From Limosilactobacillus oris (GTDB lineage Bacteria > Bacillota > Bacilli > Lactobacillales > Lactobacillaceae): DNA of 64,000 bases. A program made the translations under genes and the position numbers. The first letter of the stretch is position 1; every line of letters begins with the position of its first letter. The stretch lies in contig NZ_CP104398.1 of assembly GCF_025311495.1 (NCBI RefSeq), positions 620,001-684,000 on the forward strand. The letters run 5' to 3'. A model generated the notes under the pieces. It was not told where the DNA came from. It made no database searches and saw only the letters and a list, made by a program, of their open reading frames with translations. This document shows, one piece after another, positions 40,906 to 50,444 of the stretch.

Positions 40906-40929
40906 ATAAAAAAATCACCCGCACGGGGA
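40906..40929. repeat. attL, left 24-bp direct repeat
   Basis: Identical over 24 bases to 50305-50328; contains ATCACCCGCACGGGGA, the last bases of the tRNA-Glu T-arm and acceptor stem. Left and right copies diverge immediately outside (40905 T against A; 40930 C against T). Confidence 0.85.
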
Positions 40930-40964
40930 CAACAACCCCTTGATATATCAAGGCTTAACGCCGT

Positions 40965-40984
40965 TTTTGTCGTGAGTTTGTCGT
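40965..40984. repeat. Left arm-type repeat (putative integrase/Xis site)
   Basis: TTTTGTCGTGAGTTTGTCGT, repeated exactly at 50194-50213, each lying inside the island near an att site and each containing two GTCGT half-sites 11 bases apart. Both are preceded by TTAACGCCG. Confidence 0.7.
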
Positions 40985-42073
40985 TTAAAGTTGGGCCAGC
41001 TTGTCAATGATAAGCGTGTCGTTTTTTGCCTTGTACTCATCAATCAAATATGAGTAAGTGTTAAGCGTCACAGTGATATTAGAGTGGCCTAGTCGTTTTG
41101 ATATGGCGTAAATATCCACGCCCTGCCCTAACAAGTAGGCCACATGGACGTGACGCAGTGAGTGGAAATGAAACCCTTGCTTTTCAATACCACATGACAC
41201 CATAATAGAGCGTAGACATTTATTTAGGGCGTTACTGGTGGGGATGGTTCCTAGCACATTCTGAAACACCATAACGCTGTTATTGGCTTTTAAGTCTGCT
41301 AAATGATTCAGCAGTTGCCGGTTAACCTTGATGGTCCGGTTGCTTGATTCCGTTTTAGTGGACTTAAAGGCCTTTTTCTTTTCGTCCCAGGATTTATTTA
41401 CCCGGATGGTGGAATGCAAGAAGTCAACATCTTTCCATGTTAACGCCTGGACTTCACTTTTTCTCATCCCCGTGTAAATCGCCGTTAATATCATGTAACG
41501 GCTTGTATTATACCGGTTCAGCTTAGCTAACACAGCAGTTTTAAGGGTGGCTAACTCATCATTAGTTAAATACTGGACTTTAACTTTTTTATCACGGTTA
41601 TAAGTCACCGTGACGTTATGGGTAAAGTCCTTAGTAATGACATCATCATCAATCGCATAACTAACCGCTGTCCTAATGGCACCATTTAACTTGCTGACTG
41701 ACTTATAAGCATGGTCAGCACCATACCAGTTAATAAAGGCTTGGTAGTCTGACCGTTTAATATCACGCAGCCGGGTATCTTTCCAATACTCGTTAATCAT
41801 TTTTAACATGATTCGATACTGATTCCGAGCACTAGCACTTTGGGCCTTGTTGGCTTTATACAGTTTGAACCAGTGTTGGAAGTATTCAGCTAGCGTTACG
41901 TCTTTCAAGTCAAGATTAACTTGGCCCAATTTAGTTTCTAACTCATCGGCTGCCGCTAGTGCTTCCCGCTTTAACTTGAAACACCCTGCTGACTTCTGGT
42001 GCCAATTGCCATCGTTATCTTGGTAACTGGCATATCCGTAGTAACCCTTATTAGCTTTTCTTGCATAACTCAT
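40985..42073 (-). CDS. int: Tyrosine recombinase (island integrase)
   Basis: 362 residues. An AP2-like N-terminal arm-binding part (KGYYGYASYQDNDGNWHQKS), a SAM-like core-binding domain (about 58-160) and the catalytic domain with Arg204 (YTGMRKSEVQALTW), His304-Arg307 (HSLRH), His330 (RLGHSN) and nucleophile Tyr340 or Tyr342 (NTYSY). All catalytic residues are present. AGGAGG precedes the ATG. Located 55 bases from attL and transcribed towards it, as usual for island integrases. Confidence 0.95.
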   Translation of the reverse strand: MSYARKANKGYYGYASYQDNDGNWHQKSAGCFKLKREALAAADELETKLGQVNLDLKDVTLAEYFQHWFKLYKANKAQSASARNQYRIMLKMINEYWKDTRLRDIKRSDYQAFINWYGADHAYKSVSKLNGAIRTAVSYAIDDDVITKDFTHNVTVTYNRDKKVKVQYLTNDELATLKTAVLAKLNRYNTSRYMILTAIYTGMRKSEVQALTWKDVDFLHSTIRVNKSWDEKKKAFKSTKTESSNRTIKVNRQLLNHLADLKANNSVMVFQNVLGTIPTSNALNKCLRSIMVSCGIEKQGFHFHSLRHVHVAYLLGQGVDIYAISKRLGHSNITVTLNTYSYLIDEYKAKNDTLIIDKLAQL

Positions 42074-42090
42074 TGTATTACCTCCTGTCG

Positions 42091-42106
42091 CACAGCTTGC
42101 CGGCGT
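42091..42106 (+). repeat. Island motif B, copy 1
   Basis: CACAGCTTGCCGGCGT, identical to 43595-43610; its core CTTGCCGGCGTT recurs inverted at 50174-50185. Confidence 0.6.
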
Positions 42107-42148
42107 TTTGGACTGGAAGTAATAGCCGATAAGGGAGCAACCCCATGA

Positions 42149-42301
42149 TTATGTATGCTTGAATAACACCATGTGACAGCTCAACAGAGAGCTATCACAG
42201 GTTGTAAAGGGGTATCTGTTTTGGACGCCCCCACTGCTTAACCTGATTCGGCGATTTACCGACTTGGGTTCCCTACGGTACTGTTTTGGCAGGTGTCGCA
42301 T
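42149..42301 (-). CDS. Small basic protein upstream of int, unrecognised
   Basis: A 50-codon frame starting at ATG 42301 with a strong GGAGGAG seven bases upstream: MRHLPKQYRREPKSVNRR, then a Ser/Thr/Cys-containing half. The first 25 residues are highly basic, so a nucleic-acid-binding peptide is conceivable. Its second half overlaps motif A at 42167-42181, which could instead mean the sequence is regulatory. No family recognised. The stretch 42302-42480, between it and the repressor stop, has a GTACCCT/AGGGTAC hairpin near 42358-42379. Confidence 0.35.
   Translation of the reverse strand: MRHLPKQYRREPKSVNRRIRLSSGGVQNRYPFTTCDSSLLSCHMVLFKHT
42167..42200. repeat. Island motif A, inverted pair 1
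   Basis: CACCATGTGACAGCTC, six bases, then GAGCTATCACAGG: an inverted pair of the GTGAYAGCTC motif. Further copies at 43280-43294, 45148-45160 (inverted) and 47497-47553 (pair). Confidence 0.6.
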
Positions 42302-42480
42302 TTCGCTACTCCTCCAAGGATTAGGGCGCTTCGTACTGAAATCAAGTACGCAGGTCAGTACCCTGTTTTAGGGTACTGGTTCTATATATTTCGCAGGTAT
42401 TTAGAAACTATATTCAGCTATCTAACTAGCTATATCAGCAGAACGGGCTAAGTTCAACTTAGGGCCATCCCCAAGCAGAG

Positions 42481-42957
42481 TTATTTATTTGCGCCATTTT
42501 GTTTTTGGTGAGAATGGACAAAATCCAAGCTCGCCTTAGCTAAATCATCTTTAAAATACGCTAGAGCGTCTAGTGATAACCCATAGAAATCCCCCACCGT
42601 AGAAACCAAAACGGGTTCTTTAAGGTGTTGCTGCACGTCACCGTCCGATACTGCTAATTCTCTTAATTCATTAATATAATTCTCCACTATCGTAAAACTA
42701 TCGAGCAATTCTGTAAGGTTTCGACTTTTATAATCAGTAGGTAATTTGGATATTCCCATTAAATAGGTAACTGAAACATTACCTAATTCGGCGATTCTTT
42801 TGAGTCTTCTCTTATTAGGACTTCCACCATGTTCCCACCTTGAAACGGCGCTTTTAGGCGCAGGCGGGTTAAATAGTTGGCCGAATTCTTCCTGGCTTTT
42901 TCCTAATCTTAATCTTATTTGTTTAATTCGGTCACCTAATTCCTTATTTTGTGGCAA
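42481..42957 (-). CDS. XRE-family island repressor (Stl/Rpr-like master regulator)
   Basis: 158 residues when started at the TTG at 42957 (LPQNKELGDRIKQ), six bases after AGGGGGCG; a longer TTG-initiated frame reaches 42984 but would overlap that site. Helix-turn-helix LGDRIKQIRLRLGKSQEEFGQLF...KSAVSRWEHGGSPN (about 5-50), then a helical C-terminal part (LTELLDSFTIVENYINELRELAV) with no RecA-cleavage or peptidase motif. It is therefore not an obvious SOS-cleaved repressor and may be relieved by a helper-phage antirepressor protein, as in SaPIs; this is inference. Divergent from the excisionase-like genes. Confidence 0.82.
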   Translation of the reverse strand: MPQNKELGDRIKQIRLRLGKSQEEFGQLFNPPAPKSAVSRWEHGGSPNKRRLKRIAELGNVSVTYLMGISKLPTDYKSRNLTELLDSFTIVENYINELRELAVSDGDVQQHLKEPVLVSTVGDFYGLSLDALAYFKDDLAKASLDFVHSHQKQNGANK

Positions 42958-43002
42958 ACGACATCGCCCCCTAGTAGCATTCAAAAAAGTTCAATTTTTA
43001 TA

Positions 43003-43031
43003 TTGACTTGAGTATAAAATACTTTTATTAT
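43003..43031 (+). promoter_or_regulatory. Rightward promoter of the island early operon
   Basis: TTGACT (43003-43008), 17 bases, TATTAT (43026-43031); overlaps the leftward promoter almost completely. Confidence 0.75.
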
Positions 43032-43039
43032 GTAGTCAA
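43011..43039 (-). promoter_or_regulatory. Leftward promoter of the repressor gene
   Basis: Minus strand TTGACT (43034-43039), 17 bases, TATACT (43011-43016). The two promoters share the same DNA, so polymerase binding is mutually exclusive. Confidence 0.75.
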
Positions 43040-43123
43040 CGAGGTTCAAAAAAGTTCAGTTAATAGCCTCTTTTTATTTTTGAATTCATGTTCAAAAAAG
43101 TTTCGTTTTAGGAGTGAGAGCAA

Positions 43124-43306
43124 ATGACAGCATATTTCAGTTATAAGCAGGCTATGCAGTACATGGGTATCAAGTCAAAAGCAACCTTTGATAAGTACCT
43201 AAAGAATGGCTTGCCAACTATTCTAATTGGGAAGTCCAAGCGCATTGCAAAGTCTGACATTGACGAGTTCATGGCTGCCCACCGTGTGACAGCTAAACAG
43301 GATTAA
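43124..43306 (+). CDS. Small HTH protein, excisionase/AlpA-like
   Basis: 60 residues with a winged-helix (MerR/excisionase-like) fold: YKQAMQYMGIKSKATFDKYLKNG, then LIGKSKRIAKSDIDEFMAAHRV. Such proteins act as recombination directionality factors or AlpA-type activators. First gene after the switch region; AGGAGTGAG precedes the ATG. Motif A lies across its 3' end (43280-43294). Confidence 0.7.
   Translation: MTAYFSYKQAMQYMGIKSKATFDKYLKNGLPTILIGKSKRIAKSDIDEFMAAHRVTAKQD
43280..43294 (+). repeat. Island motif A, single copy
   Basis: CACCGTGTGACAGCT, one mismatch to the copies at 42167 and 47497, inside the end of the first HTH gene. Confidence 0.5.
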
Positions 43307-43310
43307 GGGG

Positions 43311-43592
43311 ATGAATTACGTGGACATTGATTTACAACTACCGCCGGAACTCAAGGCAGCCACCCTAAACATGGTGACGGCGGCTATTGATTCAGCGGTA
43401 AAGGAAGTAACCAATAAAAATAGCTTCCCGCCGTTTTTAACACAGCAAGAAGCCTGTAAGTATCTTCATATTGCGCCAAGCACTTTTAATAAGTGGGACC
43501 GTGAATATCACATTCCTGTAATCAAAATTGATGGAGTAAAGCGGTACAAGCGGGATAGTTTAGATGAATTCATGAAGCAACTAGAAAAGTAA
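43311..43592 (+). CDS. Helix-turn-helix DNA-binding protein (excisionase family)
   Basis: 93 residues. The C-terminal half is a second excisionase-type winged helix: FLTQQEACKYLHIAPSTFNKWDREYHIPVIKIDGVKRYKRDSLDEFMKQL (in pieces). The N-terminal half is a short helical extension (LPPELKAATLNMVTAAIDSAVKEV). Starts 4 bases after the preceding gene. Two adjacent proteins of this type suggest one serves as Xis and the other as transcriptional regulator; which is which cannot be told. Confidence 0.7.
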   Translation: MNYVDIDLQLPPELKAATLNMVTAAIDSAVKEVTNKNSFPPFLTQQEACKYLHIAPSTFNKWDREYHIPVIKIDGVKRYKRDSLDEFMKQLEK

Positions 43593-43594
43593 GT

Positions 43595-43610
43595 CACAGC
43601 TTGCCGGCGT
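43595..43610 (+). repeat. Island motif B, copy 2
   Basis: CACAGCTTGCCGGCGT, exact copy of 42091-42106, immediately after the stop of the second HTH gene. Confidence 0.6.
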
Positions 43611-43632
43611 GAAGTGACTGGAGGACATAACT

Positions 43633-43779
43633 ATGAAACTATTAGCAACAATTGACCATCGCATATTGTCATACTGGAACACGGCCCCCAGTGAACGGGG
43701 ATGGGCTTATCTGGCGACATTCGTTCCACTGGCCGCCCTGCTATGTTCTATCATCAGCGAATTTATTGGAGGTATGTAA
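43633..43779 (+). CDS. Small single-pass membrane protein, unrecognised
   Basis: 48 residues from ATG 43633, preceded by GGAGG at good spacing. N-terminal half is soluble (MKLLATIDHRILSYWNTAPS); a hydrophobic helix WAYLATFVPLAALLCSIIS spans about 24-42. The stop is 0 bases from the next ATG and the GGAGG inside its last codons serves that gene, so it is translated in the operon. Membrane miniproteins in satellites can act on the helper phage or superinfection; no evidence for function here. Confidence 0.6.
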   Translation: MKLLATIDHRILSYWNTAPSERGWAYLATFVPLAALLCSIISEFIGGM

Positions 43780-44085
43780 ATGAAATTAGACCAGGAAGAA
43801 CAACAATTATTACAGCTGCTGCCACATGGGGTTAGTCATCCCCGCCCATTGCGTGAGTTAGTGAAACTGACCGGCTGGAATGGGCGCAAGGTCCGGGCCA
43901 TTATCTACCGCTTGATTGTGGTCCACCATCAACCAATTGGGGCCACGAACCAGAAACCCGGTAATGGCTACTTCATCATTACCAACGACCAAGAACGGCA
44001 GCAAGCGTTGGCCCCGCTAACGTCACAAATTCAGATGATGACTAAACGGGCGCAAGTAATCAGCAGAACAGAACTAAAGGGCTAG
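43780..44085 (+). CDS. Winged-helix-like phage/island protein, unknown role
   Basis: 101 residues. EEQQLLQLLPHGVSHPRPLRELVKLTG, then NGRKVRAIIYRLIVVHHQPIGATNQKPGNGYFI (in pieces) looks like a winged helix that reads as a DNA-binding or replication-associated protein; similar short proteins occur in early regions of Lactobacillales prophages. Directly follows the membrane miniprotein. Confidence 0.55.
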   Translation: MKLDQEEQQLLQLLPHGVSHPRPLRELVKLTGWNGRKVRAIIYRLIVVHHQPIGATNQKPGNGYFIITNDQERQQALAPLTSQIQMMTKRAQVISRTELKG

Positions 44086-44233
44086 ATAAATGAGGGTACA
44101 AAAAAAGCATATATCAAACGAAACTTTGGCGAGTGGTGTTTGGTATACGCTGACAAGTGAAGTTTTTTGAATTTCACGCTATACCCATATTTTACCAAGC
44201 CTAGCAATTAAATTAAAGGATTGGTGTTTAAGA
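44086..44233. promoter_or_regulatory. Island intergenic region with nested inverted repeats
   Basis: 148 bases containing GGTATACGCTGA and, inverted and imperfect, CACGCTATACC (about 44139-44188), with an inner GTGAA/TTCAC hairpin around TTTTTTG. This may be an internal promoter-operator for the replication genes, separate from the early promoter. Not assigned to a known element. Confidence 0.4.
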
Positions 44234-44512
44234 ATGAAGAATGATTTAGATTTTGATTTAAGTGATATTCAAACTACGAACGAAACCCAAGCCGGGTTGC
44301 TAGCTTCCTTAGATGATACCCTTGCTTATATTTTAGACCCGTTAATTGGTGACGAGTACCCGGATGATTCTAAAACGTCAACGGCAGTTTATGAATTAGT
44401 AAGGGACCATCAAGCTATTAAAGCCTTGTTACGGTGCCTAAAGTCCACGACTGAGGACCAGGCCGACAAGTTGGAAGATGCTTATCAAAAATATGTAGAG
44501 GGGGCCGAGTAA
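44234..44512 (+). CDS. Hypothetical acidic island protein
   Basis: 92 residues, acidic and helical (LDFDLSDIQTTNETQAGLLASLDDTLAYILD; DYPDDSKTS-like middle; LEDAYQKYVEGAE). No family recognised. It ends on the start codon of the primase gene (TAATG overlap), so it is translationally coupled and may be a replication accessory factor. Confidence 0.6.
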   Translation: MKNDLDFDLSDIQTTNETQAGLLASLDDTLAYILDPLIGDEYPDDSKTSTAVYELVRDHQAIKALLRCLKSTTEDQADKLEDAYQKYVEGAE

Positions 44513-45546
44513 TGGACTTCCCGGAAGCAATGAAGCAAGAACGCCGCTGGTGTGCCTGGTTCTATCATGATGACCCGCAGCACCCAGACGACACCCATAA
44601 GCGTAAGAAAGTCCCCCATGACCTGAACAGTCCTAAGTGTCGGGGCCTGGCGTCAAGTGTGGGACCAAGTACGTGGGGAACCTATCAACAAGCACTAAAC
44701 ACTTACACATTTGCCCAAGCTAATCCCGAGCGGGCCAGAGTGATGAATTATGGTGGGCCGGGATTCATGGCTGGCGGCGGCTGGTGTTTCCTAGACCTAG
44801 ACAACATCCCCAATGAAATCGACGATTACAGCCCAGACCAGGACGGCTTAGTTAACCAGCTGCTGGACCTATTAGGTGATACCTATTGCGAGGTCAGCCA
44901 GTCGGGGTTAGGATTGCACTTCATTTTCAAGGTTGATGACACCGTAGAGCAATTCAGCACCAAGCAGCACGGCCGAGAGCTGTACACCAGTGGCCGGCTG
45001 GTCGCCTTGACTGGTAAAGCCCTAGATGATGACTTACCACTTAAAATCAGCACTATCAGCCAACCCATGTGGCAGCAATTACACCAATTATTGTTTGGCG
45101 AGTATGCACCACCGGGCCAGACTGGTAACAGTGATTTCAGCAATACAGAGCTATCACATGGGGTGTTAAGTGATACGGGGGTGGCCGTCATTGATTCCAT
45201 TATGCAAAGTACGGACGCCAAGCGATTTAATTGGTGGCTGACGGCTGATTTACCTATTGAGAGTACCAACGTCACCGGGAAGCAATTCCCCGATGAGAAC
45301 GGCCAGCTAATCAATTACGACCCATCGGCCCAAGATATGGCTTGCTGCAATATGCTGGCCTATTGGGTCCGCCAGGTAACCGGTGATTACGACAGCCGAT
45401 TAATTGATGAGGTATTCAAGCAAACTAATCTGTACCGTCCCAAGTGGAACCGAATGGACGGCGGCGGGACTTACGGCCAACGGACTATAAAGCAAGCCAT
45501 CGACCACAAACGCCAGCAGTTAGAACGATATATGAGGAGGTATTAA
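44512..45546 (+). CDS. Bifunctional primase-polymerase (AEP/prim-pol) protein
   Basis: 344 residues. N-terminal archaeo-eukaryotic-primase-like domain: RRWCAWFYHDD, catalytic GGGWCFLDLDNI (acidic DLD) and the SQSGLGLHFIFK motif (SGxGxH) around residues 125-140. The C-terminal part (PSAQDMACCNMLAYWVRQVTGD, LIDEVFKQTNLYRPKW) is the helical cap often fused to or followed by a helicase. Makes primers for island replication with the helicase encoded 4 bases downstream. Confidence 0.85.
   Translation: MDFPEAMKQERRWCAWFYHDDPQHPDDTHKRKKVPHDLNSPKCRGLASSVGPSTWGTYQQALNTYTFAQANPERARVMNYGGPGFMAGGGWCFLDLDNIPNEIDDYSPDQDGLVNQLLDLLGDTYCEVSQSGLGLHFIFKVDDTVEQFSTKQHGRELYTSGRLVALTGKALDDDLPLKISTISQPMWQQLHQLLFGEYAPPGQTGNSDFSNTELSHGVLSDTGVAVIDSIMQSTDAKRFNWWLTADLPIESTNVTGKQFPDENGQLINYDPSAQDMACCNMLAYWVRQVTGDYDSRLIDEVFKQTNLYRPKWNRMDGGGTYGQRTIKQAIDHKRQQLERYMRRY
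45148..45160 (-). repeat. Island motif A, inverted single copy inside primase gene
   Basis: Minus strand CATGTGATAGCTC, one mismatch to CATGTGACAGCTC at 42170-42182. Confidence 0.4.
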
Positions 45547-45550
45547 TTGA

Positions 45551-47215
45551 ATGAGTGAAGAGAAAGATAAACAGAGCGCCACAGAAAAAGCCGAATGGGC
45601 CGCCATCAATTCTTTGGCGCTGCAATACGTCAAGAAAGACACGGCCCATGAGCTGGCTAATAAAATCACCGCCGATATTAACAAGGCGTATGGGGATGAA
45701 ACCAACCAAAAAGCACGAGAGCAGGCCACTAAATTAGCCAGCCAGCTAGACGAAAAGAATTCTAACTATCGGATGATGACTATCCTAAAAGCTGTTGATA
45801 GCACCCTGTTGGGGATGACTAATACCATGAGTTCGATTAAAGCGGCAAAGCAAGGAATGCTGAAAACTGATAAAGGGGTTATCAAACCCAATTCACGGGA
45901 GAACGTCCGGCTAATCTTTGAGCATGACCCCCATTACCAAGACTTATTCAGATACAACAGCTTCACCGAAGAGGCAGAGTATAGAAAAAGCACCCAAGCG
46001 GGTTTCGTTTCGATTGATGATGACCTAATAGCCAACCTGGCAACTGATATTGAACGCTATTATCGGATGATACCTACTGATAAGGCGGTAACGGATGGCT
46101 TGCTGTTAGCTGCTAAGGGCCATCCATTTAATCCCATTAAACAACGTATCGAAACGGTGCAATGGGACGGACAACAACGGGCGGCTAACTTTTTCATTGA
46201 TTACTTAGGGGCTGACAATAACGAATATGTAAAGGCTGTTACTGAAACATGGCTGGTGGGCCTGGTTGCCAGAGTATACCGGCCCGGAATTAAGTGTGAC
46301 ATTATGCCGATTCTTGATGGTAAACAGGGTATCGGAAAAAGTACGCTGGTTAGCCTGCTATGTTCACCACCATATTTTGAGGACAGTTTAAGGACAATGG
46401 GCGCTGATAAGGACGACCTTATTAAAATTCATAGTGCTTGGGTGGTCGAAATTGGCGAACTAGAAGCCATGACTAATACCAGCTTGGACCGAACCAAGGC
46501 GTTTATTTCGGCCACAAGTGATAATTTTCGTTCCCCCTATGGGCGGATTCGGGAATATCATCCCCGCAAGAATATGTTTATCGGAACCGTGAACCGGTCG
46601 GAATATCTACACGACTTAACCGGTAACCGACGTTTTTACCCCATTCATTGCGAGAAAAGTAGGGCCAGGAAGCCTATGCCGGCACCGGGTGACTATAACA
46701 ATGCTGACATCTTGCAAATCCTAGCGGAAGCCAAAGTGCTGTTTGAACAGGGGCACGCCTTGAAGTTACCGGACAAGCTGGAACGAGTGGCCCACGATAA
46801 GCAATCTAAGGCAATGGCCGCCGACCTGCAAGCCGATTTAATGCTGGAATACAGCGAATTACTGGTACCTGATGATTGGGACAGTTTCAGCATTTACCAG
46901 CGGCAACAGTATTGGAAACGATATAGGGAACACGGTGAATATGGTAAACGAGTTGTAACTGGCACTGGTGAGAACAAGACAAGTGATTATATTCTATTTG
47001 AGCCGGACCAGCTGCATAAGCTGCCACAGTTTACTAATACCGAGTTACTGGAAGTCGTGTTTGAACAGAACGGCCGAGAAATTGCACGGGGCGGACGGAA
47101 CCCGCTAACTGCTAAGATTTCGATGGTATTTGATAATAACGAGAATTGGAATAAAAGCGACAATTGCAAATTATTTGGAAAGCGACGCAAAGGGTACAAA
47201 CGACATAGCGCTTAA
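45551..47215 (+). CDS. VirE-family (superfamily 3-like) replicative helicase
   Basis: 554 residues. The C-terminal ATPase (about 195-400) has Walker A DGKQGIGKSTLVSLL (257-264), Walker B WVVEIGELEAM, a polar sensor FIGTVNRSEY and an Arg finger GNRRFYPIHCEK. The N-terminal half is helical and may bind the origin or primase. This is the virulence-associated-E/P4-type helicase used by many satellites and prophages. AGGAGG in the end of the primase gene is its binding site. The replication origin lies directly downstream, as in SaPIs. Confidence 0.87.
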   Translation: MSEEKDKQSATEKAEWAAINSLALQYVKKDTAHELANKITADINKAYGDETNQKAREQATKLASQLDEKNSNYRMMTILKAVDSTLLGMTNTMSSIKAAKQGMLKTDKGVIKPNSRENVRLIFEHDPHYQDLFRYNSFTEEAEYRKSTQAGFVSIDDDLIANLATDIERYYRMIPTDKAVTDGLLLAAKGHPFNPIKQRIETVQWDGQQRAANFFIDYLGADNNEYVKAVTETWLVGLVARVYRPGIKCDIMPILDGKQGIGKSTLVSLLCSPPYFEDSLRTMGADKDDLIKIHSAWVVEIGELEAMTNTSLDRTKAFISATSDNFRSPYGRIREYHPRKNMFIGTVNRSEYLHDLTGNRRFYPIHCEKSRARKPMPAPGDYNNADILQILAEAKVLFEQGHALKLPDKLERVAHDKQSKAMAADLQADLMLEYSELLVPDDWDSFSIYQRQQYWKRYREHGEYGKRVVTGTGENKTSDYILFEPDQLHKLPQFTNTELLEVVFEQNGREIARGGRNPLTAKISMVFDNNENWNKSDNCKLFGKRRKGYKRHSA

Positions 47216-47553
47216 CACGGTACTGATTAAATAACACGGCTGGAACGGTTAAGCGTGTAGGCCCTAGCACTTACAGCCCCAAGGGATTAAGTGACATTAT
47301 ACACGGTACACGGTTATTTTTCTCTCAAAGACTTTTTTCAGAGTACACAGAGGAACAGGAACCATATATAAATATATATTCTTTTAAGAAAAGAAGTGTG
47401 TTACCGTGTTAAACCACTGCTAGCGCCTTACGTGCCAAGGGCTCAAAGCATACACGGTTAGCCGTGCTTTACCGTGTTAAACCGTGCAAAGTACCCCACC
47501 ATGTGACAGCTAACAGGGTTGATATTGGCGTACTAAACAGGAGCTGTCACAGG
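47212..47553. other. Putative island replication origin (iterons plus AT-rich region)
   Basis: Iteron-like TAACACGGTA copies: 47212-47222, 47232-47240, 47300-47308 and 47308-47316 (tandem), then an AT-rich stretch (47361-47390, mainly TATATAAATATATATTC), then inverted copies 47402-47411 and 47470-47479 and a forward one at 47451-47460. A motif A inverted pair (47497-47511, 47542-47551) follows. Repeats on both sides of a melting region, directly after a helicase gene, match SaPI-type origins. The helicase is the natural candidate for binding. Confidence 0.75.
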
Positions 47554-47579
47554 GGGTTAGCATAAAGGAGTGACTAAAC

Positions 47580-47783
47580 ATGATAATGAACGAATACGGA
47601 CAACCATACACCCGTTATATACCTGGCGTAGAACGCTATTTGGACGGCGTGCCGTACAGCAGTAATAAGGAATACCTAGCAGCCATCAATAGCCGCATTA
47701 AGGAATTAAAGCACCTGGCCGCTAAGGTAAGCAACAGTAGCGAAACACTGGACTGGAATAGTCCAATTTACATTAGGAGGTAA
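47580..47783 (+). CDS. Hypothetical island protein
   Basis: 67 residues (MIMNEYGQPYTRYIPGVERY, later INSRIKELKHLAAKVSNSS). Rich in Tyr and Asn at the N-terminus and with a short helix. AAAGGAG lies at good spacing. No family recognised. First gene after the origin. Confidence 0.55.
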   Translation: MIMNEYGQPYTRYIPGVERYLDGVPYSSNKEYLAAINSRIKELKHLAAKVSNSSETLDWNSPIYIRR

Positions 47784-47788
47784 TTAAA

Positions 47789-47986
47789 ATGGCTAAAGTT
47801 AAATTCTTTGAAGCAAATAATTTTTACAGCTCAAGAGAGCGAAAATTTGTTACTGAATTTCCTGAAAAACTAGAACAGCAAATTAATGACTTTATCAAGG
47901 GCAAGACGGTAGTTGATATTAAGTACCAGCTATCAGTTTCCGAGGACGATGCATATTATTCTGCAATGGTGATTTATGATGACTGA
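47789..47986 (+). CDS. Hypothetical island protein
   Basis: 65 residues: MAKVKFFEANNFYSSRERKF, FPEKLEQQINDFIKGKTVVDIKYQLSVSEDDAYYSAMVIYDD (in pieces). The predicted beta-alpha-beta shape resembles small phage proteins of the sporulation Cse60/DUF2758 kind seen in Gram-positive phages, a weak impression only. Follows the previous gene by 5 bases with AGGAGG. Confidence 0.6.
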   Translation: MAKVKFFEANNFYSSRERKFVTEFPEKLEQQINDFIKGKTVVDIKYQLSVSEDDAYYSAMVIYDD

Positions 47987-48043
47987 ATTAGCAACTACTC
48001 CGCAATAGTGAACCTGTCAAAACCTGACATTTTTATTAGGGGG

Positions 48044-48496
48044 ATGAACGTTATTTTTGATTTTGAACTGCCGAAAAACTTAGACCGCCAGGCGACCATA
48101 AATAAAGCACGCCACTTTTTAGAAACAGACTTTCAGAAATGGCGTCGCTACTCTGATTATGAAAATCTACTGTCATCCCCTGCTATTACTGGGCTACCCC
48201 AACGTGGTAGCACTGAACCAGATAAACGGTTTATTAATCATGTGACCTATCGGCAATTAGTAGATATTGTTATCAAAGTAATTAATTCGTTAACAGAAAA
48301 GTATGGACAACCTATTTTATACGGTCGTTATGTAAAAGGTTATCCCGTTAAAACTATTTGCCAACAGCTTTTAATAACAACTACACCGTTTGGAAACCAT
48401 TCACAGAAAGCATTAATTGAATTCGCTAATTTATTGTATCTGGCAACTGCTCAATTTGGCGATGAGTTAGTTATAGATTTGCGGGTAATGAAGTAA
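48044..48496 (+). CDS. ArpU-like late transcriptional regulator
   Basis: 150 residues from ATG 48044. The only good Shine-Dalgarno (AGGGGG) abuts this ATG, so the true start is uncertain; a GTG-initiated frame begins at 48008. Features of the ArpU family: LDRQATINKARHFLETDFQKWRRYSDYE, RQLVDIVIKVINSL and GYPVKTICQQLLITTTPFGNHSQKALIEFANLL, a sigma-like HTH. ArpU proteins control late genes of Gram-positive phages. In an island without late structural genes it could drive the terS unit or interfere with the helper late switch. Confidence 0.65.
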   Translation: MNVIFDFELPKNLDRQATINKARHFLETDFQKWRRYSDYENLLSSPAITGLPQRGSTEPDKRFINHVTYRQLVDIVIKVINSLTEKYGQPILYGRYVKGYPVKTICQQLLITTTPFGNHSQKALIEFANLLYLATAQFGDELVIDLRVMK

Positions 48497-48499
48497 ACA

Positions 48500-48530
48500 A
48501 AAAAAAGACGGCTCTAATTAGCCGCCGTTC
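48500..48530 (-). terminator. Hairpin with T-run on the minus strand
   Basis: ACGGCT CTAATT AGCCGCCGT-type stem preceded by eight A on the plus strand; the T tail is therefore on the minus strand although both neighbours are plus-strand genes. Confidence 0.45.
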
Positions 48531-48660
48531 ATGAACTGTTGATACCTATATTATATCACGGGCAGGAGGGATTTTAATAAACCGTGATGACGTTTGCTAC
48601 TTAGGATTAACAACAATCAACTCTAATAAATTTATAGAATTGGAAAGGAAGTATATAACT

Positions 48661-49263
48661 ATGGATTATACATTAACAATGCAGGACATCGCACAACTAG
48701 CAGATAAGGCAGGCAATATTTATCAAGGCTTAGATAGGAAAATTAAAGAAAATCATAAAACATACATCGACCCTACTTTACAGGACCAGAAGGACACTCA
48801 AACGGCAGCCGGTCAAATTGATTACCTTTGCCAGCAAGCCCAACAGCAGCTAGACAAGGCAATTGCGGAAAAGCGAAGCCAGATTAACGGCCGCTATCAT
48901 GGCGATGTTACGGCGGACCAATTAGCCAACGTCAACCAGCTTGCCAATTATAACGACCTATCCAAAGACGAGCTTCAAGGCTACCTTGACAAGTACAAGG
49001 ACAACTTGCCGCTTCTCAAAGCGTTTGAAGCCGTTGTTAAGGCTAAGGGTTGGCGAATTGATGGCCTGACATACGACAACGAAATTGAGTTCCTGAAACG
49101 TTTCAAGGCTTCAATGCAAACTATCGTTGATGGTATGAAGAACGGGTCGCCAAAGGGATTGCCGCTTGAAACTAAGATTGCAGCTAATATGGCAGCAGAC
49201 CGGGTCAAGGACTGGGAAACAAAGACCAATAACCCGACCTATACTTTGCAGCGTATGCACTAG
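48661..49263 (+). CDS. Hypothetical helical island protein
   Basis: 200 residues from ATG 48661 (AAGGAAG nine bases upstream; an earlier in-frame start lacks a site). Largely alpha-helical and charged: QDIAQLADKAGNIYQGLDRKI, YLCQQAQQQLDKAIAEKRSQI, LQGYLDKYKDNLPLLKAFEAVV. No known domain recognised. Size, helicity and position just before terS would suit a packaging or capsid-interference protein of the SaPI Cpm/Ppi kind, but there is no sequence support for that. Confidence 0.6.
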   Translation: MDYTLTMQDIAQLADKAGNIYQGLDRKIKENHKTYIDPTLQDQKDTQTAAGQIDYLCQQAQQQLDKAIAEKRSQINGRYHGDVTADQLANVNQLANYNDLSKDELQGYLDKYKDNLPLLKAFEAVVKAKGWRIDGLTYDNEIEFLKRFKASMQTIVDGMKNGSPKGLPLETKIAANMAADRVKDWETKTNNPTYTLQRMH

Positions 49264-49338
49264 AATTTTTGGACGACCAATGGTGGCCGTCCTTTTTCAA
49301 AGTGATTAGTTTTGAACAGTTTTGACAGGAGATAAAAA

Positions 49339-49719
49339 ATGAAAGAAAAGAAGTTGACGCCAAAGCAATTAAAATTACTTAACGCCCTATTCACTGAGCG
49401 AACTATACAAGACGCCTACAAAACCGCAGGTGTAAGCGTGGCTACCGGCCAACGTTACCGGCAGCTCCCCCGCTTTATAGCGGCTTACGATAAACGGCAA
49501 CGGGCCTTAATCAACGCCACTAATAACCGTCTAAGAGCGTTAAGCGGTCAAGCAGTAGAAACATTAGCGGACGTGTTGAACGACCCAAAAGCGGCTAATA
49601 CTGACAAAGTACGGGCAGCTAAAGTTGTGCTTGATACCACCTACAAGAACATCGAACTTGAAGAGTTACGGCGGCAAGTTGACAAATTAGAAAAGGAGCA
49701 AGGAATAAATGAATATTGA
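49339..49719 (+). CDS. Small terminase subunit (TerS)-like protein
   Basis: 126 residues. N-terminal HTH (LTPKQLKLLNALFTERTIQDAYKTAGVSVATGQRYRQLP in pieces), a central helix ALINATNNRLRALSGQAVETL, DPKAANTDKVRAAKVVLDTTYK, and a C-terminal coiled coil LEELRRQVDKLEKEQ. This is the phBC6A51/DUF-type HTH small terminase layout. No large subunit is present, so it would redirect a helper TerL to island DNA as SaPI TerS does. Other HTH-coiled-coil functions are possible. Confidence 0.72.
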   Translation: MKEKKLTPKQLKLLNALFTERTIQDAYKTAGVSVATGQRYRQLPRFIAAYDKRQRALINATNNRLRALSGQAVETLADVLNDPKAANTDKVRAAKVVLDTTYKNIELEELRRQVDKLEKEQGINEY

Positions 49720-50002
49720 AAGTTTGCGGCGCCGGGTACAGCGTCTTGCAGAAAGCAATCCACAAGCAACGGTAATAATCGCAACGATTAATGGGCGTGG
49801 TATCATCCATATGAGCAACAACGGCGAAGAAGAAGTTTTTGCCACCTGGAAAAGTGCAGCCGACTATTTAGAACGGCTTAAAGCATCATTGCGGGGCGAA
49901 TTAACTATTATCTGGGACGATATACCGCTAAGAGTTGAGAATAAGGAACTATTTAAGAAATGGGAATCTTTTCTTGACCAGTATGGCCACGACGAAGAGT
50001 GA
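49709..50002 (+). CDS. Hypothetical island protein downstream of terS
   Basis: 97 residues; overlaps the terS end by 11 bases, hence coupled. MNIESLRRRVQRLAESNPQA, then a beta-rich centre VIIATINGRGIIHMSNNGEEEVFATW and helical end KELFKKWESFLDQYGHDEE. Not recognised. Last gene of the island, followed by a terminator. Confidence 0.6.
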   Translation: MNIESLRRRVQRLAESNPQATVIIATINGRGIIHMSNNGEEEVFATWKSAADYLERLKASLRGELTIIWDDIPLRVENKELFKKWESFLDQYGHDEE

Positions 50003-50058
50003 TATAATTAATAACGTCAGTGCCCTTGCTATCATGGAAAAGGTAGTAAGTCACGTTT

Positions 50059-50107
50059 CAAAGTATCAGTGCAATTAAAATTAATTTTGCATTGATACTT
50101 TTTTTAT
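50059..50107 (+). terminator. Terminator of the island plus-strand operon
   Basis: AAAGTATCAGTGCAAT and ATTGCATTGATACTTT-type arms around an AT loop, then seven T. Confidence 0.85.
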
Positions 50108-50173
50108 TTGCTTTTTTTGTCGTCAACATCCCCACAGGGCAAAATAAAAAGGCCGCCTAATTGGTGACCTATT

Positions 50174-50185
50174 AACGCCGGCAAG
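50174..50185 (-). repeat. Island motif B, inverted core copy
   Basis: AACGCCGGCAAG, reverse complement of the CTTGCCGGCGTT core at 42096-42107; next to the right arm-type repeat. Confidence 0.5.
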
Positions 50186-50193
50186 AAATAAAA

Positions 50194-50213
50194 TTTTGTC
50201 GTGAGTTTGTCGT
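50194..50213. repeat. Right arm-type repeat (putative integrase/Xis site)
   Basis: TTTTGTCGTGAGTTTGTCGT, exact copy of 40965-40984 and in the same orientation. Confidence 0.7.
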
Positions 50214-50256
50214 GGACTTGCTAAAAAATACGTTTTTATAGAATTTCAGAAAAATA

Positions 50257-50300
50257 AAAATGCTGGTATATCAACGTTTTAACACCATTGATAACCAGCA
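50257..50300 (-). terminator. Terminator downstream of tRNA-Glu, supplied by the island
   Basis: Minus strand TGCTGGTTATCAA/TTGATATACCAGCA then TTTTTA, between the tRNA 3' end and the island interior. Confidence 0.75.
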
Positions 50301-50304
50301 GAAA

Positions 50305-50328
50305 ATAAAAAAATCACCCGCACGGGGA
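50305..50328. repeat. attR, right 24-bp direct repeat within tRNA-Glu
   Basis: Identical to 40906-40929; overlaps the acceptor and T-arm 3' side of the tRNA gene, so the tRNA stays complete at this end. Confidence 0.85.
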
Positions 50329-50386
50329 TCGAACCCGTAACTCCGCCTTGAGAGGGCGACGTCTTAACCAATTTGACCAGCGGGCA
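50314..50386 (-). tRNA. tRNA-Glu (anticodon CUC)
   Basis: Cloverleaf on the minus strand: acceptor TGCCCGC/GCGGGTG, D arm GTC/GAC, anticodon stem TCGCC/GGCGG with loop CTCTCAA (anticodon CTC), T arm ACGGG TTCGATC CCCGT, discriminator A. The first two acceptor pairs are U-G and G-U wobbles and no CCA is encoded. CUC reads GAG, a second isoacceptor beside the usual UUC. Confidence 0.8.
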
Positions 50387-50444
50387 ATAACGTACAAGTA
50401 GAATTATACGTTATTCGACTATTCACTGTCAATAGTTTTAACAA

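Follow-up and report, generated by a model that had tools for sequence, protein, structure and literature searches.

Location and gene content of the island

The DNA analysed here, a 64,000-nucleotide stretch of Limosilactobacillus oris (contig NZ_CP104398.1, positions 620,001–684,000; referred to as the window), carries a 9.4-kb island at a tRNA-Glu gene. The island encodes its own integrase, primase-helicase pair and small terminase (TerS) and no recognisable structural genes, and it is, with high probability, a phage satellite of the phage-inducible chromosomal island (PICI) type, predicted to depend on a helper phage for its mobilisation. It extends from 40906 to 50328 of the window with a unit size of 9,399 bp, and its ends are formed by 24 identical bases. 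The left copy of this attachment (att) core lies at contig positions 660906–660929. The G+C content is 43.5% for the island and 48.1% for the window.

40906–40929, unstranded: attL, 24-bp core, identical to 50305–50328; marks the left limit of homology with the empty site
50305–50328, unstranded: attR, 24-bp core; overlaps tRNA-Glu(ctc) at its 3' end
50313–50387, minus strand: tRNA-Glu(ctc), the integration target (ARAGORN)

The same site is unoccupied in a congener (genome G272, locus L061). The right flank of the window is 97% identical to this genome over 1,193 bases, the two window flanks meet there at a 21-bp overlap (BLAST), and both flanks plus a single copy of the core align at 94.9% identity across 623 columns. 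The repeats, the tRNA-Glu gene and this empty site confirm to the base the span given in the original prediction, which was made from the sequence alone. One trait of PICIs is an attachment site that prophages do not use. The tRNA-Glu gene is also used by a sister island in Limosilactobacillus ingluviei and, judged by position, by an island at locus L067; the resident prophage, the one prophage looked at for site use, has its integrase ∼140 kb from the island. An exact 16-nt repeat, CACAGCTTGCCGGCGT, occurs within the island at 42091–42106 and 43595–43610, with a shorter piece on the opposite strand near 50170 (noted by eye); these may serve as arm sites for the recombinase or as binding sites of a regulator.

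The 15 open reading frames (ORFs) of the island were scanned against Pfam and PHROGs. Features up to the packaging genes are given below, with identities to two sister islands, one in L. ingluviei (L059) and one on an IMG/VR contig (L100).

40985–42073, minus: tyrosine integrase, 362 aa (PF00589 5.5e-24, phrog_1 7.3e-74; 98% in L059 and L100)
42481–42963, minus: master repressor in the Stl/Rpr position, start codon uncertain (HTH_3 2.3e-9; varies between sister islands)
42980–43107, unstranded: three operator-like repeats of the TTCAAAAAAGTT type, copies at 42980, 43045 and 43091 (repeat search)
43124–43306, plus: AlpA-like HTH protein 1, 60 aa, in the Xis position (phrog_668 1.6e-10)
43311–43592, plus: AlpA-like HTH protein 2, 93 aa (HTH_17 1.1e-7, phrog_668 2.1e-15)
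43633–43779, plus: hydrophobic protein, 48 aa (94% in L100; relatives in genomes G282 and G264)
43780–44085, plus: 101-aa protein of phrog_2113, a family with function unassigned (1.6e-21)
44234–44512, plus: 92-aa protein (66% in L059 and L100)
44512–45546, plus: primase with NrS-1 polymerase HBD domain, 344 aa (PF22763 1.9e-17, phrog_1829 1.6e-48; 96–97% in L059 and L100)
45551–47215, plus: VapE (VirE) helicase, 554 aa (PF05272 9.9e-70; 98–99% in L059 and L100)
47212–47579, unstranded: probable replication origin, with TACCGTGTTAA direct and inverted repeats and a 13-nt inverted repeat (repeat search), after the helicase gene
47580–47783, plus: 67-aa protein (96% in L100)
47789–47986, plus: 65-aa Cse60-like protein (PF10957, Spore_Cse60, 6.2e-6)
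48008–48496, plus: ArpU-family regulator (phrog_248 8.6e-22)

The gene order is that of a PICI: integrase, divergent repressor and AlpA-like genes, primase, VapE, origin-like repeats, ArpU and TerS. The TTCAAAAAAGTT 12-mer occurs three times in the 64-kb window, always between 42980 and 43107. The region behind the helicase gene is probably the origin, as judged from its repeats and its position. The 101-aa protein is related to proteins of the Streptococcus satellites Javan230 and Javan328, and the Cse60-like protein to proteins of Javan328 and Javan343; the 48-aa gene is broken across two frames in L059. Among the 15 ORFs no large terminase (TerL), capsid, tail or lysis family was matched; the one exception is the TerS ORF, with a marginal hit to a spanin family at 0.079. 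The original prediction had suggested the unrecognised genes as the place where helper-interference functions may lie; a defence and interference scan (PADLOC, E 0.1) gave no match for seven of eight proteins and two marginal matches for TerS.

Both the gene set in its order resembling that of Staphylococcus aureus pathogenicity islands (SaPIs) and the lack of TerL, capsid, tail and lysis genes had been predicted, and both hold in these scans, with TerS supported by profile and fold. The predicted list of unrecognised genes stands in part: the 65-aa protein has a match to Spore_Cse60, and the 101-aa gene was absent from the list.

Packaging genes

48661–49263, plus: 200-aa helical protein, directly upstream of the TerS gene; streptococcal counterpart confined to satellites in the phage collection
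49339–49719, plus: small terminase (TerS), satellite type, 126 aa; profile and fold support
49709–50002, plus: 97-aa protein overlapping the end of terS; one protein cluster with 17 members on 16 contigs

The TerS ORF passes no Pfam cut-off by itself. It has the SF6 small-terminase DNA-binding fold and a profile link to the TerS of the resident prophage, and judged on these the assignment is remote in homology but real. The original prediction had proposed a search of phage collections. By tblastn in 50,697 phage records TerS matched 39, comprising 35 Streptococcus satellite phages, three unannotated gut scaffolds (6–11 kb) and Dulem virus 31 (35.8 kb); 38 of these records do not exceed 14.7 kb. 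Identity to the Javan satellite counterparts is 28–37%. With the Javan721 homologue as query, all 53 matched records are named as satellites, a label given by the depositors and based on absent structural genes (PMC6813308). As a control, the resident prophage TerS matched 750 records, and 13 of 15 sampled at even steps were full-size phages.

TerS is scarce in whole genomes, being found in two of the 396 genomes of the family, namely the island's own and G226. The G226 protein (L077:14137–16236) is 42% identical to the island TerS. Inspection by eye showed neighbouring ParA-like and tyrosine recombinase genes and no phage structural gene in a 20-kb stretch; the protein perhaps belongs to a plasmid-like element that gets packaged.

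The 200-aa protein matches the Javan721 gene that immediately precedes Javan721 TerS (1.5e-4), and this counterpart in turn matched 24 records of the phage collection, all of them satellites. In a comparison of 16 Javan records the two genes are adjacent in five (Javan99, 721, 198, 375 and 287) and both present but separated in Javan103; six have TerS without the 200-aa gene and four the 200-aa gene without this TerS. The 200-aa gene thus directly precedes this TerS in five of the ten records that have it. The protein is a candidate for a helper-interference function.

Sister islands and two exchanged blocks

The primase is matched at 1e-5 in nine of 50 genus genomes, own included. The L. ingluviei island (genome G263, L059) occupies the same tRNA-Glu gene, and its integrase, primase and VapE proteins are 96–99% identical to those of the window; a VapE match at 99% is found in L. 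ingluviei DSM 15946 (NZ_AZFK01000038.1). The IMG/VR contig (L100; IMGVR_UViG_3300043781_000061) carries the island from the integrase to ArpU, with 215 bases at 99% at its right end. Backbone DNA of the two sisters is 89–96% identical to the window island by aligned block, which is also the range for L100 itself, and for L059 it is 92–96%. The flanks of L059 beyond the tRNA have no blastn match to the window flanks except for tRNA-Gln.

A second element, from 10281 of L100/L102, abuts the sister island at its right att end. It has integrase (50%), repressor, AlpA-like, primase and helicase genes and, where the stretch ends, a protein with a by-eye resemblance to head-completion proteins, so that two satellites appear to lie in tandem at one site.

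Identity of the window island to each sister was profiled in 200-base bins, and breakpoints were taken from BLAST and the boundary sequences. Backbone bins are mostly 0.90–1.00, and in two blocks identity drops to 0.30–0.52.

42465–43123 versus L100, right edge 43284 versus L059, unstranded: exchange slot 1, repressor and operator-like repeats (BLAST breakpoints, identity profile, boundary sequence)
48661–50113 versus L100, 47627–50109 versus L059, unstranded: exchange slot 2, packaging cassette (BLAST breakpoints, identity profile, boundary sequence)

The left edge of block 1 falls at the identical position in both sisters. Within it each island has a different repressor, with sister identities of 0.41–0.48, and its own repeat set. 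The right-hand breaks of block 2 lie within a few bases of each other, and versus L100 its left edge coincides with the start codon of the 200-aa gene: the ribosome site and ATG are common and the coding sequence differs. Block 2 of L100 encodes a phage-type TerS (phrog_7344) unrelated to that of the window. It matched 27 phage records, and all 25 among the matches listed are full-size, including Lactobacillus phages phiAQ113 and phiJL-1. In block 2 of L. ingluviei no TerS was recognisable, with PHROGs scans covering two of the ORFs there. A 120-aa ORF in this block (L059:2943–3305) ends in WLDDDVPF, which we take to resemble the acidic C-terminal tip of single-stranded DNA-binding proteins. 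Lesser differences lie at 44306–44505 (0.66 in both sisters) and 47706–47905 (0.71 versus L100), and the low first bin versus L100 is the contig end.

The longest ORF in the exchanged block is 149 aa in L059 and 167 aa in L100, sizes that exclude TerL, portal or capsid genes. The nearest backbone relatives found (L059/L101 and L100) show no sign of structural genes. The original prediction had named full prophages among the close relatives as the finding that would speak against a satellite; the closest relatives found by backbone are islands with no sign of structural genes.

Nature of the island and proposed life cycle

The sister islands and the sizes of the TerS-matched records make a PICI-type satellite, as originally proposed, the best reading. 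A PICI has the order integrase, divergent repressor, xis/alpA, pri-rep, origin and packaging genes, with terS in some members (PMC6092414). The window island has three PICI traits, namely this gene order, absent structural and lysis genes and a terS homologue.

One possible but rather unlikely origin, under which the island would still be a satellite, is descent from a capsid-forming PICI (cf-PICI) through loss of the capsid genes and acquisition of TerS. Among the genus loci compared, the next VapE relative (G264, L066, 54%) adjoins HNH, TerS (PF05119), TerL, portal, protease-capsid and head-tail genes; JB1P3 of Lacticaseibacillus rhamnosus has a similar plan, and the protein resembling head-completion proteins behind L100 points the same way. 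However, the L066 integrase is only 29% identical and its TerS belongs to another family, and neither the window island nor either sister retains a capsid trace. It is very improbable that the island is immobile or decayed and fixed in its host, the sister exchanges being old. The L. ingluviei copy has no recognisable TerS and one small gene split over two frames, but the main genes and att core of the window island are intact, and the L059 island is 92–96% identical in aligned DNA although blastn matches only tRNA-Gln in the flanks beyond the tRNA. Least probable of all is an ordinary prophage that deletion has reduced to its early region and TerS: a tyrosine integrase, a repressor, an ArpU and a TerS do occur in prophages (the resident one has ArpU upstream of TerS) and full-size phages carry relatives of the primase (194 records; 25 among the matches listed), but those matched by the primase and by VapE (578) are all less than 60% identical, with no near-identical full prophage among the matches listed, and the exact att ends and empty site, the two islands of the same form elsewhere and the occurrence of the TerS and 200-aa families in satellites argue against it.

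For the PICI-type satellite we infer the course of induction, replication, packaging and transfer, and the identity of the helper, as follows. A helper protein would lift the divergent repressor off the three operator-like repeats; one or both AlpA-like proteins and the integrase would excise the unit at the 24-bp core; the primase and VapE would copy it from the origin behind the helicase gene; ArpU would switch on the last operon; and the island TerS would deliver the island DNA to the helper large terminase for packing in helper capsids. A candidate helper is the resident prophage (G000:C1:483059–520365, outside the window), a complete-looking element of ∼37 kb in the ORF list and of SPP1 type, with Terminase_3, SPP1 portal and Terminase_2 TerS by Pfam and an ArpU of the same family as that of the island.

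PICIs make contact with their helpers through the repressor, which is released by a helper protein, and through the packaging genes, which have to match the helper large terminase. Since both exchanged blocks are points at which satellite and helper have to be compatible, the exchanges may be read as helper switching, or a changed helper range, by cassette exchange. We tentatively propose, as a conjecture with somewhat less than even prospects, that lactobacillus satellites swap helpers by means of two cassettes, the repressor with its operators and the packaging genes with a TerS of their own, while the integrase-primase-VapE replicon stays fixed, and that the 200-aa protein is a partner in packaging that occurs in satellites alone, redirects or blocks the terminase of the helper, and is common to lactobacilli and streptococci.

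The island kind is already known; this member stands out by the clean exchange of two blocks and by the satellite-type gene before TerS, and the evolutionary record is unusually clean. The three islands amount to a natural swap experiment with a constant replicon and differing repressor, operators and packaging genes, making helper choice directly testable in terms of which cassette answers which phage. The unnamed family of the 200-aa protein could mark satellites in searches, and satellite interference with phages is of practical weight in lactobacilli used in food and feed.

Comparison with known systems

With the SaPIs and PICIs of Gram-positive cocci the island shares an integrase left of a divergent repressor, an excision gene, a primase and replication protein, an origin, packaging genes and the absence of structural genes (PMC6092414). 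It differs in its Limosilactobacillus host, its separate NrS-1-type primase and VapE, and the ArpU and 200-aa proteins before terS. The Streptococcus Javan satellites share the TerS family, in part the preceding 200-aa gene, and the layout, the matched records being 6.5–18 kb (PMC6813308), whereas nine of the 16 compared are annotated with a DnaC/DnaI-type replication protein in place of primase-VapE. The resident SPP1-type prophage has an ArpU of the same family (32% identity, 129 columns), a distantly homologous TerS and an integrase at 47–56%, but Pfam confirms TerL and portal genes in it, and its ORF list, judged by eye, also contains tail and lysis genes.

JB1P3, a satellite-like element of L. 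rhamnosus JB-1 (PV668529), likewise has a primase-related protein and, after it, a VapE-type primase/helicase (34% to the window VapE), but it also has portal and capsid genes and a TerS assigned to phrog_83; the cf-PICI label for it is our own. The G264 element (L066:1–13759) has integrase, VapE, TerS (PF05119), TerL, portal, protease-capsid and head completion/head-tail genes, with no tail gene recognised in the stretch, which ends at the contig end, and it looks like a cf-PICI. Unlike these two, the window island has no capsid, portal or TerL gene of its own, the cf-PICI trait, among its 15 scanned ORFs. The capsid-bearing kin thus indicate that the same replicon type serves both capsid-less and capsid-bearing elements.
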